Shown: positions 1 through 3,531 of the stretch, in pieces
Layout of the letters: every line of letters begins with the position of its first letter
How positions within the stretch are numbered: position 1 is the stretch's first letter
NCBI GenBank assembly: GCA_017483575.1
Contig: JAFUWF010000009.1
Span: 1-54,328, forward strand
Source: Bacteroidales bacterium
GTDB taxonomy: Bacteria; Bacteroidota; Bacteroidia; Bacteroidales; P3
DNA: 54,328 nucleotides
Direction: 5' to 3'
Position numbers and translations under genes: made by a program
The notes under the pieces: generated by a model
What the model saw: the letters and a program-made list of their open reading frames with translations, nothing else
The model's database searches: none
What the model was told of the DNA's origin: nothing

Positions 1-349
1 GGAGCGTCGGATTAGTTTTAGGGGCAAAAAAAACCGTCACAATATCCTGTCCATTATTGATTTTTTCTTGCATATTTTGAGGGAGGGGGAGAATGTTGTA
101 GTTCACGAGAAGTGTATCCCACCCCTCGTCGTCGAGGGCGGTGAGTATGGTGACATCGACGGCGAGGGTGTCGTTGACGGGGAAGTTGCGGAGGTAGGTG
201 ACGGCGAGGTGGGGGTTGTCCTGGTAGTGGCGGTAAAGGTCGCTGACGCCCATCCGCGGCAGCACCACGGCGGCGGCAATGCCCACCACCATCAGCAACG
301 CCAGCACGGCGCCAAGCTGCCAAAACAGTTTTATCTTCTTGGGCATCAT
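1..349 (-). CDS. membrane-anchored SDLY-motif protein, partial (C-terminus off window)
   Basis: The frame starts at the ATG whose ATGA overlaps the stop of the upstream gene, and runs off the left edge, leaving about 116 residues. It opens with a lysine-containing N-terminus and one hydrophobic segment (about residues 8-30), then a region beginning SDLYRHY and containing VDVTILTALDDEGWD. The gene at 2080-2532 has the same order: membrane anchor, SDLYHRY, then VDVVTVEALDSAGWH. The two are therefore paralogues. I do not recognise the family. By position it is the third gene of a sigma factor / small membrane protein / SDLY operon, so it may be a target or sensor component of that system, which is inference. 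Most of the chain is probably periplasmic. Confidence 0.72.
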   Translation of the reverse strand, partial: MMPKKIKLFWQLGAVLALLMVVGIAAAVVLPRMGVSDLYRHYQDNPHLAVTYLRNFPVNDTLAVDVTILTALDDEGWDTLLVNYNILPLPQNMQEKINNGQDIVTVFFAPKTNPTL

Positions 350-627
350 TGGTTCAAAAGTATTTGTTGCACACACTCTATGGCTTCCTGGCTGCCCAGG
401 ACACCCGTGGTCGAGGGTTGGCTGACGTAGGCCATGGACACTTTAGCCGTGCCCACAGCCAGGAAGGCCATCGTCAGCATCATCACCACATTGCGCTGCA
501 CGGCGGCACGGCGGCGGTAGCGGCGGCATTCCTCTTCTATCTCCGGTCTTTGCGCATCGATCAGCGCCCGGACATGGGCCAGCAGTTCGGGCGGTAGCCC
601 GCGGTTGTCATCAATCATTGTCTTCAT
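346..627 (-). CDS. small single-pass membrane protein, possible anti-sigma-like partner
   Basis: 93 residues: a charged N-terminal half rich in Arg and Glu, a basic stretch (RRYRRRAAVQR) just before one membrane segment (about residues 47-67), and a short tail ending in QEAIECVQQILLNQ. The product of 1796-2083 has the same plan, with RRRR before the membrane segment and QEEAVLLCADKLLT at the end. The gene overlaps the 3' end of the sigma factor gene by 17 bases (8 if the fourth codon, also ATG, is used). Position and topology resemble short anti-sigma factors, but no known anti-sigma domain is recognisable. The shared Q-E-A...Cys tail is the main conserved feature outside the membrane segment. 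Confidence 0.7.
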   Translation of the reverse strand: MKTMIDDNRGLPPELLAHVRALIDAQRPEIEEECRRYRRRAAVQRNVVMMLTMAFLAVGTAKVSMAYVSQPSTTGVLGSQEAIECVQQILLNQ

Positions 628-1117
628 AAAAAAACTTCTTCATTTTCTTTTTAATATTGGATTTCATTTGTATCACCGTGCGGTACTTCAGGCCCAGCAG
701 GCGCGCCAGCTCCTCGTCGGAGGCACCCTGGGCCAGGAGGAGGAAGAAGCGCCTCTCGGCCTCGCCGAGGGTGGCGGCGAAGTCCTCGGCAACGAGCCGC
801 ACCATCGCGTTGTCGGCCTCCTGCGAGGCCGCCAGGCCCTCCGTGAAAGGCACCGTCACCAGGCGCTTCAGGCACCGCAGATAGCGGTCGATGGCCACGT
901 GGCAACGCCCGTAGATCCACAACCTCTCCTCCAGCCCCGCAAGGCCTGCCTTGCGCTCCGGCCACCGCACCAGCAGCTCCAGGAAGCACTCCTGCATCAG
1001 CTCCTTGCTCATCTCCGTGCGCCCGTACGACGCCCGCTGGCACAGAAAAAGGATCAATTTCCTGTACCGCACCACGAACTGGTCGTATTCCTGATATGTC
1101 TGTTCCGTTACGGGCAT
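611..1117 (-). CDS. ECF-type RNA polymerase sigma factor (copy A)
   Basis: 168 residues when started at MPVTEQ. The frame is open further upstream to 1213, but homology to the partner at 1303 begins at MPVTEQ/MPTTNA, and a purine-rich GGGGGAAG precedes this ATG. A region 2-like part includes ELMQECFLELLVRW and EERLWIYGRCHVAIDRY. The C-terminal helix-turn-helix (region 4) is ASDEELARLLGLKYRTVIQM followed by a lysine-rich end. Sequence and size fit an extracytoplasmic-function sigma factor that redirects RNA polymerase, though region 2 is divergent and the protein is short. It heads a minus-strand operon with the small membrane protein and the SDLY protein, diverging from the paralogous sigma gene at 1303. 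Confidence 0.8.
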   Translation of the reverse strand: MPVTEQTYQEYDQFVVRYRKLILFLCQRASYGRTEMSKELMQECFLELLVRWPERKAGLAGLEERLWIYGRCHVAIDRYLRCLKRLVTVPFTEGLAASQEADNAMVRLVAEDFAATLGEAERRFFLLLAQGASDEELARLLGLKYRTVIQMKSNIKKKMKKFFYEDND

Positions 1118-1183
1118 ACTTCCCCCATTTATACCTACTATTAAGAACGAAACACCCCGAAAGTATATTTTGCTATGCCAACA

Positions 1184-1234
1184 TTTAACATCTTTTAACT
1201 TTTGGAGGATCAAAAAGTGTTAAAGATAGTTAAA
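1184..1234. promoter_or_regulatory. symmetric GTTAAA-box operator between the divergent sigma operons
   Basis: On the plus strand TTTAAC-N4-TTTAAC lies at 1184-1199 and its inverse GTTAAA-N4-GTTAAA at 1219-1234, so each operon is preceded by GTTAAA-N4-GTTAAA on its own coding strand. The distances to the start codons are nearly equal: 66 bases to the ATG at 1117 and 68 to the ATG at 1303. Boxes within an arm repeat every 10 bases, about one helical turn. Neither side shows the housekeeping TAnnTTTG element at a suitable position. The likely reading is a shared binding site for one regulator, or mirror-image alternative-sigma promoters. This is inferred from symmetry alone. Confidence 0.55.
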
Positions 1235-1302
1235 AAACCATACCCTCGGTAGTATTTTGGCAAAAACCATGTTATAATAGTATAAAGACTTATGCGAAAA
1301 CT

Positions 1303-1785
1303 ATGCCAACGACAAACGCGAGATACGACGACTTCGACCGCCTGGTCCACCGGCACGGCTCCTACATACGGCGCCTCTGCTGGTGGCAGTCGTCGGGCCG
1401 CAGCGAGGACTGTGCCGACCTCATACAGGACTGCCTGCTGGACCTCTGGCACCACCGCCACACCCTGCGCCCCGACGCCTCGGAGGCCCAGGAGCGCCTG
1501 TGGGTGAAGTTCCGCTGCCGCAGTGTCTTCTCGCACCGCAAGGAGACGTGGCCCTACGAGCTCGCCACCCTCGACGAGGCCCGCACCGTGGCCGACGAAT
1601 CCGAGGACAAGCGGCGCCTGCTGGAGGACATGGCCTGCGGCCTCAACGAACGCGAGCACCAGGTGCTGACGCTGATTCTCGACGGCTACTCGCGACAGGA
1701 GATTGCCGAACTGCTGGACCTCACGCCCAAGCACGTCAGCCAGATACGTTTCCGCATCGTGGAAAAAATGAAAAAAGAGATATAA
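1303..1785 (+). CDS. ECF-type RNA polymerase sigma factor (copy B)
   Basis: 160 residues. The N-terminal region shares a spaced pattern with copy A (Y-x-x-[FY]-D-[QR]-[FL]-V; DLIQDCLLDLW against ELMQECFLELL; QERLWVKFRCR against EERLWIYGRCH). The C-terminal helix-turn-helix region is REHQVLTLILDGYSRQEIAE, followed by a basic tail (VEKMKKEI). The family role is promoter recognition by RNA polymerase, usually in response to an envelope signal. It leads an operon in which the next genes follow at +10 bases and then by two 4-base ATGA overlaps. The start was chosen at MPTTNA because the paralogue starts equivalently. Regulation by the operator at 1184-1234 is inferred. Confidence 0.82.
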   Translation: MPTTNARYDDFDRLVHRHGSYIRRLCWWQSSGRSEDCADLIQDCLLDLWHHRHTLRPDASEAQERLWVKFRCRSVFSHRKETWPYELATLDEARTVADESEDKRRLLEDMACGLNEREHQVLTLILDGYSRQEIAELLDLTPKHVSQIRFRIVEKMKKEI

Positions 1786-1795
1786 CCCCTACGCC

Positions 1796-2083
1796 ATGAA
1801 CGAACATCAGATTGAACAACTCATCGAGCACGAGGCCGCCCGTCGCCGCGCCGCCGACAACGAGCACCTGACGCTCCTGGCCACGGACCTCACCGCCGAC
1901 CTGCCCTCCTGGGCCCGGCGGCGCCGCATCCTGGCCTCCCTGCTGGCAGCGGTGCTCCTCCTGGGCGTCACCGCCACCTACAACGCCCTGCTGCCGCACC
2001 GCCAGATGGAAGGCCTCGTGGCCTGCAACCTCGACGGCCAGGAAGAGGCCGTGCTGCTTTGTGCCGACAAACTTTTAACATGA
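1796..2083 (+). CDS. small single-pass membrane protein, possible anti-sigma-like partner
   Basis: 95 residues, paralogous in layout to the protein encoded at 346-627. An acidic/basic cytoplasmic N-terminus (IEQLIEHEAARRRAADNEH) is followed by a WARRRR stop-transfer-like cluster, one hydrophobic segment (about residues 45-63) and a short tail with CNLDGQEEAVLLC. It lies 10 bases after the sigma factor gene. Its stop TGA (2081-2083) overlaps the next start as ATGA, suggesting coupled translation. An anti-sigma role is plausible from context but no named domain is visible. Confidence 0.72.
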   Translation: MNEHQIEQLIEHEAARRRAADNEHLTLLATDLTADLPSWARRRRILASLLAAVLLLGVTATYNALLPHRQMEGLVACNLDGQEEAVLLCADKLLT

Positions 2084-2532
2084 ACAAGGATATGAAACGA
2101 CTATGCATCTTCACCGCCGTGCTGCTGGCCGTGGCCCTTGCCGGAGTCTCCCTCTGGCACCTGCTGACGCCCGGCACCCCCACGCCCAGCGACCTCTACC
2201 ATCGCTACGAGCACCAGGCCGGCGTGCGTGTGGGCTACATTGAGGACTACCGCTTCGACGACTCCACCTTCGTCGACGTGGTGACCGTCGAAGCCCTGGA
2301 CAGCGCCGGATGGCACTGGATGGAGCAGGAGTTCGCCCTGCACGAGCATGCCAACCCCGAGGCACCCGCCGCAGGCTCCGGCCCCGAGAGCGTCACCCTC
2401 TGGCAGTGCGACGACGGGCAGAACATCGCCTTCTGCTCCTGGGCCGACAGCGCCCTCTGCCTCGTGCAGCCACGCTCCGAGCGCGAATTCGAACACATCA
2501 TCATCTATCACCTGCAAAAAATCAGACAATGA
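2080..2532 (+). CDS. membrane-anchored SDLY-motif protein
   Basis: 150 residues when started at the ATG of the ATGA overlap (M-N-K-D-M-K-R-L); the longer frame upstream would overlap the previous gene heavily. A hydrophobic segment at about residues 7-25 is probably an uncleaved anchor. It is followed by SDLYHRY, a long VDV...ALDSAGWHWM stretch, and a Trp/Cys-containing C-terminal domain (SVTLWQCDDGQNIAFCSWAD, then SALCLVQPRS). It matches the partial gene at 1-349 across the SDLY and ALDxxGW parts. Function unknown. Its place after a sigma factor and a small membrane protein suggests an envelope component of a signalling unit. It overlaps the next lipoprotein gene by ATGA. Confidence 0.75.
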   Translation: MNKDMKRLCIFTAVLLAVALAGVSLWHLLTPGTPTPSDLYHRYEHQAGVRVGYIEDYRFDDSTFVDVVTVEALDSAGWHWMEQEFALHEHANPEAPAAGSGPESVTLWQCDDGQNIAFCSWADSALCLVQPRSEREFEHIIIYHLQKIRQ

Positions 2533-3014
2533 AACACACATCCACCATCGCCCTCGCCGCCCTGGCCTGCCTCCTGACCACGGCCTGCGGCCCCCTCAAA
2601 TACAGTGCCCAAAGCACCACGGACCCGAAGAACCCCAACAGCGGCGTCAGCATCCAGCTGCCCGGCACCGCCGGCGACGGCGCACAGCACACCTTCGTCA
2701 GCCAGCACCCAGAGGGCAACATCAAGTACGTCGTAGACGGACAGCAGTACATCGGCGAAGTCACCACCGAGGAGGACATAGCCACCCTCTACCTCAAAAT
2801 CCTGGGCTTCGCCAAACTGGGCCACAACGTAAGCGTCACCGCCCGCGACGACAACCCCAAAGGCACCAAGACCGACACCCACACCTTCACCTCCGAGAGC
2901 GAGGTCGAAGTGGCCTCATGGGCGGCACGCATGGTCCGCAAAGGCTACTCCGTCACCATCGAATACGACAAGTCCAAGCACACCTACACCTGCACCGCCT
3001 ACAAAAAGAAATAA
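2529..3014 (+). CDS. lipoprotein of unknown function
   Basis: 161 residues started at the ATG inside the ATGA overlap with the preceding stop. The signal peptide ends in a lipobox (LLTTAC, Cys at about residue 19), predicting a lipid-anchored envelope protein. The mature part contains KYVVDGQQYIGEVTTEED, a thiol-free middle segment and a Lys/Tyr-rich C-terminus (YDKSKHTYTCTAYKKK). No family is recognised. The tight overlap makes it the fourth gene of the copy B sigma operon. The copy A side cannot be checked because the window ends. Confidence 0.75.
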   Translation: MKHTSTIALAALACLLTTACGPLKYSAQSTTDPKNPNSGVSIQLPGTAGDGAQHTFVSQHPEGNIKYVVDGQQYIGEVTTEEDIATLYLKILGFAKLGHNVSVTARDDNPKGTKTDTHTFTSESEVEVASWAARMVRKGYSVTIEYDKSKHTYTCTAYKKK

Positions 3015-3060: not shown

Positions 3061-3288
3061 ATGAAAAAAATCCTTGCAATCCTGGCTGTCATGGCCACCG
3101 TGTCCCTCGTGGGCTGCAGCAAATCGAAAGACTGCAACTGCACCGTCACCCAGAACATTCCCGGCATGGGACCCCAGACCACGGAGATGGTCTACACCGC
3201 CGACGACGGCGACTGCTCCGGCCTCAACGCCACCACGACGTCCACCGTCGCCGGACAGACCATCACCCAGACCATCAAGTGCGACTAA
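3061..3288 (+). CDS. small Cys-rich lipoprotein
   Basis: 75 residues: MKKILAILAVMATVSLVGC is a typical lipoprotein signal with Cys 19 as the lipidated residue. It is followed by SKSKDCNC, a Thr-rich stretch, and two further cysteines (GDCSG and IKCD). Small Cys-containing lipoproteins with this look are common in Bacteroidales and their function is unknown. It lies 46 bases after the previous gene, probably in the same transcript, and is followed by a clear hairpin terminator. Confidence 0.75.
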   Translation: MKKILAILAVMATVSLVGCSKSKDCNCTVTQNIPGMGPQTTEMVYTADDGDCSGLNATTTSTVAGQTITQTIKCD

Positions 3289-3402: not shown

Positions 3403-3531
3403 ATTCGACTGTTCTTATATAGTATACATATAGTATACATATACTTCTCATATAGTTCTTATATATAGTATATGAATACTATATGAGAAGTATATGTATA
3501 CTATATGTATACTATATAAGAACAGTCGAAT
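3403..3531. repeat. long AT-rich palindrome, copy 1
   Basis: Two perfect 54-base arms (3403-3456 and 3478-3531) surround a 21-base centre that is itself nearly symmetric. The outer ends are ATTCGACTGTTCTT and its complement; inside, the unit ATATAGTATACAT is repeated. The inner 101 bases (3417-3517) match copies at 28080-28180 and 40002-40102. The element is almost pure A/T in a GC-rich genome and lies between two converging transcripts. It accounts for much of the gene-free stretch 3289-3651. No coding capacity. It could be a dispersed miniature element or a bidirectional hairpin. Confidence 0.9.

Follow-up and report, generated by a model that had tools for sequence, protein, structure and literature searches.

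Multi-copy gene modules of an extracytoplasmic function sigma factor, a small membrane protein and an exported partner in a gut lineage of Bacteroidales

Background

In Escherichia coli (RpoE-RseA-RseB) and in Pseudomonas aeruginosa (AlgU-MucA-MucB), an extracytoplasmic function (ECF) sigma factor, an anti-sigma factor with one transmembrane (TM) segment and a periplasmic protein are encoded together in one operon. Here we describe gene modules of similar make-up that were found in a stretch of 54,328 nucleotides from a Bacteroidales bacterium (GenBank assembly GCA_017483575.1, contig JAFUWF010000009.1; the whole stretch is called the window) and that recur in its genome and in its relatives. 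Each module encodes an ECF-type sigma factor, a small membrane protein that we take to be a putative anti-sigma factor, and a third, exported protein. The modules differ from the RpoE-RseA-RseB system in that the third protein is TM- or lipid-anchored in most classes, in copy number (1 to 14 third-protein matches per listed genome of the genus) and in that a single clade of third proteins serves several sigma clades.

In PMC7593790 and PMC7400510, RseB and MucB are described as binding helices of the periplasmic part of RseA and MucA and as shielding it from site-1 cleavage. FecI-FecR and the sigma-FecR pairs of Bacteroidetes likewise combine an ECF sigma with a membrane anti-sigma, and one type of small protein described below (type III) starts like a FecR-like partner, but the gene beside the putative anti-sigma gene is the third gene, which has no convincing Pfam match, and not that of a TonB-dependent receptor (genes further down were judged by eye). 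The EcfO type of Bacteroides and Phocaeicola, an ECF sigma with an unusual anti-sigma linked to envelope stress, has, according to PMC9308784, one large anti-sigma protein ending in a beta-barrel, whereas the small proteins described here are mostly ~90-215 aa (amino acids) long and come with a separate partner. For the phylum as a whole, the survey PMC7406223 gives a class I anti-sigma nearby for 6% of the Bacteroidetes ECF sigmas versus 32% overall.

A family of modules in one gut lineage

The window is an entire contig (C28) of a genome (G000) of 1.96 Mb in 30 contigs that is 77.7% complete. Two modules lie head to head at positions 2-3014, separated by 185 bases: the left one (A) on the minus strand, cut by the contig end, and the right one (B) on the plus strand (Table 1). 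An original prediction, made from the sequence alone, had described this pair as two divergent operons with the same three-gene order, and both the order and the quoted motifs were recovered: YQEYD/YDDFD and LMQECFLEL/LIQDCLLDL in the sigma factors, SDLYRHY/SDLYHRY and ALDDEGW/ALDSAGW in the third proteins. Sigma A and sigma B (32% identity, BLAST E 1e-21) and third A and third B (BLAST E 2e-8) are related beyond chance, as had been proposed; the small proteins, which had also been called clearly related, gave no BLAST row at E ≤ 10, and their kinship is based on position, the single TM segment and a profile containing both. The short overlaps that had been noted between neighbouring genes occur at three of the four junctions (offsets of -8 and -4 in module A and of -4 at the second junction of module B), and at the fourth there is a gap of 10 bases between sigma B and small B. 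Sigma B scores above the curated cut-off of TIGR02937 for ECF sigma-70 factors (56.1 against 42.9 bits); sigma A stays below it on its own score (37.4 bits) and is placed as an ECF sigma because of its identity to sigma B and its position in the sigma tree. Third A matches the third-family profile, which contains it, at E 5e-34 (G000:C28:23-334).

The pair belongs to a larger family. Searching the genome with third B yielded eight further places. Seven of these, module A among them, adjoin a sigma gene, and the eighth is a weak match (C24, E 0.16); the module on contig C5 was found by reading around its sigma gene. In total nine modules were recovered: C28A, C28B, C1, C3a, C3b, C5, C9, C10 and C11. 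The genome has 19 matches to PF04542; leaving out C26:141636 (287 aa), the likely housekeeping sigma, and adding sigma A, which PF04542 missed, gives a set of 19 ECF-type sigmas, nine of which sit in modules and ten outside them.

In the bacterial family to which the genome belongs, 58 of 121 genomes had a match to a profile built from the nine third proteins: 49 of the 51 listed genomes of the same genus, six of genus g2 and three of genus g10, the last being weak matches that a larger profile did not uphold. A 62-row profile hit six of 393 genomes of the order (best ≤ 8 candidates scored per genome), two from the same genus and four from one genus of family f101, and the three-gene order is the same in all four f101 regions; a profile of type II third proteins found nothing outside the genome itself among 395 genomes of the class (best ≤ 7 candidates scored per genome). 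In the samples searched, the third protein ranges over two genera of its own family and one genus of another Bacteroidales family. The third-protein loci of class III in GTDB (n = 62) come from uncultured Bacteroidales or Bacteroidetes and, in one case, from Candidatus Colimorpha merdihippi, with rumen, other parts of the gut and faeces as the stated sources.

The third gene is co-conserved with the sigma gene, and with an exported protein following a sigma factor and a membrane protein the modules have the composition of an RpoE-RseA-RseB-type operon. The order sigma, one-TM protein, exported protein is seen in all nine modules of the genome, and sigma, small, third is kept in 30 of the 30 best loci (the C3a module of the genome itself included), and a sigma gene lies upstream in 40 of 40 regions chosen down the listed third-profile matches among the family genomes, a sample that stops above the weaker, unlisted matches. 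The same holds for 61 of the 62 GTDB loci, the exception (L146) beginning too near a contig end; some GTDB contigs seem to be from the same genomes as the family-genome set, and the two sets are therefore not independent. A small open reading frame with a membrane span was extracted in 82 of 83 modules, and the remaining one (L086) had an earlier match. The third gene of module C3b (L038:12595-13291) has no signal peptide in its own frame; the start of a lipoprotein-type signal is present a little upstream in a different frame, as would result from a frameshift, an assembly error or an unusual start. The type II module on C5 lies head to head with a non-module ECF sigma bearing a FecR-like partner (G000:C5:163533-164609). 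The cassette was not described in the literature searched, which did not extend to the main ECF reclassification work.

Neither protein beside the sigma factor has a convincing known relative, as the original prediction had anticipated. The Pfam scan of 62 third proteins gave no match better than E 0.001, and the MucB/RseB family was absent from the 23 families matched by any of them at E ≤ 0.1; third A and third B, the two scanned against NCBIfam, had no match there at E ≤ 1. No match to a PDB sequence was found, and in this, as in size (~120-290 aa), the third proteins differ from RseB and MucB; comparison with PDB folds gave no clear match. DUF4252 proteins (PF14060) are small exported proteins of Bacteroidota that occur near ECF sigma genes; the third proteins resemble them in being small, exported and from Bacteroidota, but differ in having no PF14060 match (none in the genome at E ≤ 10, none among the 62 at E ≤ 0.1). 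Scanning of 80 small proteins (L106 and L107 were omitted since their start positions are unsure) gave no Pfam match better than E 0.001 and no anti-sigma family among the matches, and the NCBIfam anti-sigma matches were weak: NF052375 in 8/80 (best E 0.0028) and RsiV in 3/80 (best E 0.004). Six of the seven scanned ordinary sigma partners of the genome had no Pfam match at E ≤ 0.01 either. On the two points where the prediction had said it could fail, no known anti-sigma family proved convincing and the third gene was found to accompany the sigma genes.

One third-protein clade with several sigma clades, and a conserved tail

The 83 modules sort into the classes I (32), II (19), A (15), III (12) and B (4), with one odd module (L111). 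The type III small proteins (~155-190 aa) have an L..RY..GTLT.EE start and a long unconserved linker, and some class A small proteins (L104, L105, L096, L113) have several TM segments by eye. A crude sorting of the third proteins gives a TM anchor in A and B, a lipoprotein in II and most of I, and soluble export in III.

Types I, II and III each fall on one side of a starred branch in the sigma tree (93 rows), with II and III in separate starred clades. Five non-module sigmas, two of which have FecR-like partners, group with the type III sigmas (99/89). The class A sigmas are spread over three starred clades: L104, L105, L107 and L116 together with the non-module C5_4k sigma (100/99); L096, L106 and L113 (100/100); and the remaining ones with all of class B (96/92). 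In the third-protein tree (83 rows), a single clade (98/95) takes in 14 of the 15 class A third proteins, so that three sigma clades share one kind of third protein. An example is L108, with a third protein that is sister to that of L106 (100/95) and a sigma in the clade of the window's sigmas (100/95), a different starred clade from that of the L106 sigma.

The second conserved feature is the C-terminal tail of the small protein, of ~20 residues, which would lie in the periplasm given an N-in topology. Its consensus in type III is PVVACNxQCxxDSVINDIWKFL, in type II FxCNNxC followed by a helix-like stretch, and in type I mostly CNR....W...A..L. A profile of the type II tail found 11 of 12 type III tails at ≥ 8 bits and none of 820 shuffled decoys (one at ≥ 5 bits); conversely, the type III profile found 9 of 18 type II tails at 8 bits and 15 at 5 bits. 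A CNxxC tail is thus common to two unrelated sigma lineages. The partners of eight non-module sigmas scored ≤ 1.1 bits with any of the five class tail models. In the GTDB type III set, the strict tail motif is present in 57 of 62 loci, four of the other five have a relaxed form by eye, and L169 has none. Column conservation in those 57, a selection by tail motif that favours the tail, is 0.80 for the last 22 columns, 0.57 for the first 50 and 0.32 for the linker.

The AlphaFold2 model of third B is of high confidence (predicted local distance difference test, pLDDT, 90.5), and that of small B consists of one long helix and a tail helix (pLDDT 72-78), with an overall predicted template modelling score (pTM) of 0.36.

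Promoter-like elements

The gap between modules A and B is conserved with G052 and G517. Upstream of seven class B modules, GTAG and GTTAT are invariant, and four of the regions (window, G052, G517 and G531) have a double GTTAAA in full. Over all modules, GTTAA-N4-7-GTTAA precedes 9 of 19 A/B-class sigmas (expected ~0.1) versus 2 of 64 others. The genome contains 10 sites of GTTAAA-N3-5-GTTAAA (control 1), of which three precede sigma genes, one being that of the non-module sigma at C5:238k. The promoter-like element, in the form GTAGNNNTTTG-N10-13-GTTAT, has eight sites in the genome and none in the reversed control. Seven lie 7-216 bases upstream of a reading frame, namely those of sigma B, sigma C3a, a cassette lipoprotein before the C1 sigma and four more genes (on C1, C11, C20 and C26) whose products, judged by eye, start with an export signal; the eighth is located within a coding gene. 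The element occurs before 3 of 4 class B sigmas and is rare before the other module sigmas (I 3/32, A 1/15, II 0/19, III 0/12). Its occurrence before both sigma and exported-protein genes suggests autoregulation and a small envelope regulon, and the sigma that reads it can be named by inference only.

The fourth gene and further features of the window

Directly after the third gene, 41 of the 83 modules carry a lipoprotein gene with a recurrent domain (I 31/32, A 8/15, B 2/4, II 0/19, III 0/12, L111 0/1), a count that includes rows holding little sequence beyond the third gene. In G517, which is outside the 83, it follows both head-to-head modules (B, E 8e-34; A, E 3e-22, the A copy being readable to 110 aa). 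No Pfam match better than E 0.0005 was found for the lipoprotein, and among 247 genomes of the order there is one strong match outside the genome (G121, E 2e-35) and eight weak ones (E 2e-7 or worse). In these lipoproteins (e.g. L038:13358-14536 and L053:1939 onward) one N-terminal domain is kept and the C-terminal regions vary by eye, as in polymorphic surface proteins. Ahead of the C1 sigma gene, another cassette-type lipoprotein (G000:C1:63400-64542) has a promoter-like element of its own, so that the C1 module is flanked by two such lipoproteins. At the start of contig C7 lies the terminal part of a fourth lipoprotein of class A type (G000:C7:5-196), which may be the continuation of module A of C28 or part of a tenth module. 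Two genes on from module C9, an 867-aa protein resembles by eye a carboxypeptidase-regulatory/outer-membrane barrel protein, a point of likeness to FecI-FecR-type cell-surface signalling.

After the cassette, the window encodes another, 75-aa Cys-rich lipoprotein (3061-3288) with no family match above cut-off, a close relative of which also follows module B in G517 (L216:165-398). An AT-rich element of 38 bases (tatagtatacata...) is present twice as an inverted pair at 3418-3516; it also occurs singly elsewhere in the genome (C5, C1, C4; also L041, L037 and L039) and is a dispersed repeat. Small A could also start at an upstream ATG at 627.

Table 1. Features of the two modules in the window
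Feature	Positions	Strand	Description
Third A	2..349	-	116 aa present, no stop, 3' end lost at contig end; TM-anchored, probably periplasm-facing
Small A	346..618	-	one-TM putative anti-sigma factor, 90 aa; tail AIECVQQILLNQ without CN motif
Sigma A	611..1117	-	divergent ECF-type sigma factor, 168 aa
Direct repeat before sigma A	1184..1199	-	GTTAAA-N4-GTTAAA; mirrors the repeat before sigma B
Direct repeat before sigma B	1219..1234	+	GTTAAA-N4-GTTAAA
Promoter-like element	1249..1275	+	GTAG-N3-TTTGG-N10-GTTAT; 27 bases before sigma B
Sigma B	1303..1785	+	ECF-type sigma factor, 160 aa
Small B	1796..2083	+	one-TM putative anti-sigma factor, 95 aa; C-terminal tail VACN...EEAVLLCADKLLT, helix predicted 83-94
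Third B	2080..2532	+	SDLY protein, 150 aa; TM helix 3-29, then compact a-b-b-a-b-b-b-a domain
Fourth gene	2529..3014	+	lipoprotein with recurrent cassette domain, directly after third B

Discussion

By analogy to rpoE-rseA-rseB, we lean slightly towards the view that each module is an autoregulated cassette of an ECF sigma, a membrane anti-sigma and a periplasmic partner. The small protein would hold the sigma at the inner membrane via its short N-terminal cytoplasmic part, and the third protein, whether TM-anchored, lipid-anchored or soluble, would bind the C-terminal periplasmic tail, which in several classes consists of CN or CNxxC followed by a helix. The third protein probably holds the inhibitor in check, guarding the anti-sigma in an RseB-like way with what may be a different fold, and proteolysis would be the trigger. 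The cassette is accordingly best read as RseA-RseB logic without RseB homology. That the third protein and the tail act together is argued most strongly by the CNxxC common to types II and III and by the fact that sigmas of several clades share third proteins of a single clade. An extended form of the proposal is more tentative, and we would sooner doubt it than accept it: third protein and tail would form a transferable periplasmic input unit that has been set on unrelated anti-sigma architectures (minimal with one TM segment, FecR-like with a long linker, multi-TM) and on several sigma lineages, so that a genome of one gut lineage would have as many as 14 insulated switches in parallel.

Various results weigh against such a cassette. 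The small proteins fit no known anti-sigma family convincingly in Pfam or NCBIfam, and their cytoplasmic part of 45-50 residues is shorter than the four-helix class I domain. Likeness to the ordinary anti-sigmas of the genome is weak for the type III small proteins (BLAST E 0.001; hhalign probability 7%), and the multi-TM class A small proteins gave no convincing alignment to the C5_4k partner (probability 3%). For the third protein, in turn, sequence comparison gave no RseB relative and fold comparison no clear match. Class A tails have no CN (AIECVQQIL in the window, AVEYVHQML in G052, AIGFVQQML in G517), and the remaining class tail models find no tails of other classes, except that the type III model finds 2 of 4 B tails at ≥ 5 bits; the B model, built on four rows, picked up 10 decoys at ≥ 8 bits as well and is useless. 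For class A, a shared third protein is therefore established and a shared tail is not, independently. Amphipathicity of the tail (helical moment) is distinctive in type III alone (0.66 versus 0.39 shuffled), and, with a mean of 0.48, the eight non-module controls resemble types I, II and B. Finally, the sigma tree leaves the order among the three class A sigma clades open.

We weighed whether the third protein could be an output instead of a regulator, that is, an exported envelope or surface protein which, with the fourth lipoprotein, is expressed by the sigma while the small protein alone senses. Its gene has the operon position expected of a target, the predicted promoter element is found ahead of sigma operons and of exported-protein genes alike, its anchoring varies by class in the crude sorting, and the fourth lipoprotein, with one conserved domain and C-termini varied by eye, is itself output-like. 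This explanation nevertheless appears improbable, though it deserves attention: the fourth gene comes and goes among modules that were all found via the third gene, the eight non-module sigma partners without a third gene are also without the tail, and the tail is the best-conserved part of the type III small proteins. The absence of a convincing anti-sigma match and the short cytoplasmic part could also point to a role as a membrane adaptor or activator, instead of an anti-sigma factor, for the small protein, which the third protein would drive as a ligand-binding sensor. We think this quite unlikely, as the type III start (L..RY..G.LT.EE) is common to a FecR-like partner of another sigma in the genome, which itself weakly matches anti-sigma models (NF010501, E 6e-6; NF052375, E 4e-5; both far below cut-off), and as the genome's ordinary sigma partners are nearly as invisible to Pfam.

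The original prediction went further and saw in modules A and B a two-branch system that arose by local inverted duplication. The head-to-head layout with its mirrored GTTAAA repeats would fit one circuit, as would the fact that sigma A and sigma B are mutually closest among the nine module sigmas and that the pair is conserved in G052 (77%) and G517 (74%). The pair is, however, found in these two and the genome itself only, i.e. in 3 of 120 genomes of the genus, and in G094 A- and B-like DNA lies ~20 kb apart. Sigma A and sigma B share a clade of nine sequences (100/95) in which a sister relation between them is not supported and the forks are open, with the single-module relatives L102, L112 and L114 among its members, and third A and third B fall in separate starred clades. 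Moreover, 18 of the listed family genomes have two third genes in tandem, 2.7-3.4 kb apart. Tandem copying and dispersal seem to be the rule and not a special inverted duplication, and the single circuit strikes us as very improbable. The genomic picture of the prediction held for the pair itself and was too narrow for the family, which has at least nine modules in this genome and the lipoprotein as a recurrent fourth gene. In two of the three pair genomes the contig ends within or ~0.2 kb past third A (window position 1; L085, the right end of G052:C6), while G517 reads on; several other contigs also end near modules, which hints at repeats or variable stretches.

Under the preferred reading as anti-sigma cassettes with a periplasmic partner, the modules offer a concrete, multi-copy candidate answer to how sigma factors are controlled in one gut lineage of this phylum. 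The anti-sigmas would be minimal and all but escape the standard models, and each would have an exported partner of its own and a readable tail. If this is true, the short tail peptide and the compact domain of the third protein would make partner specificity, and insulation among parallel switches, testable, and the predicted promoter element offers a candidate regulon.

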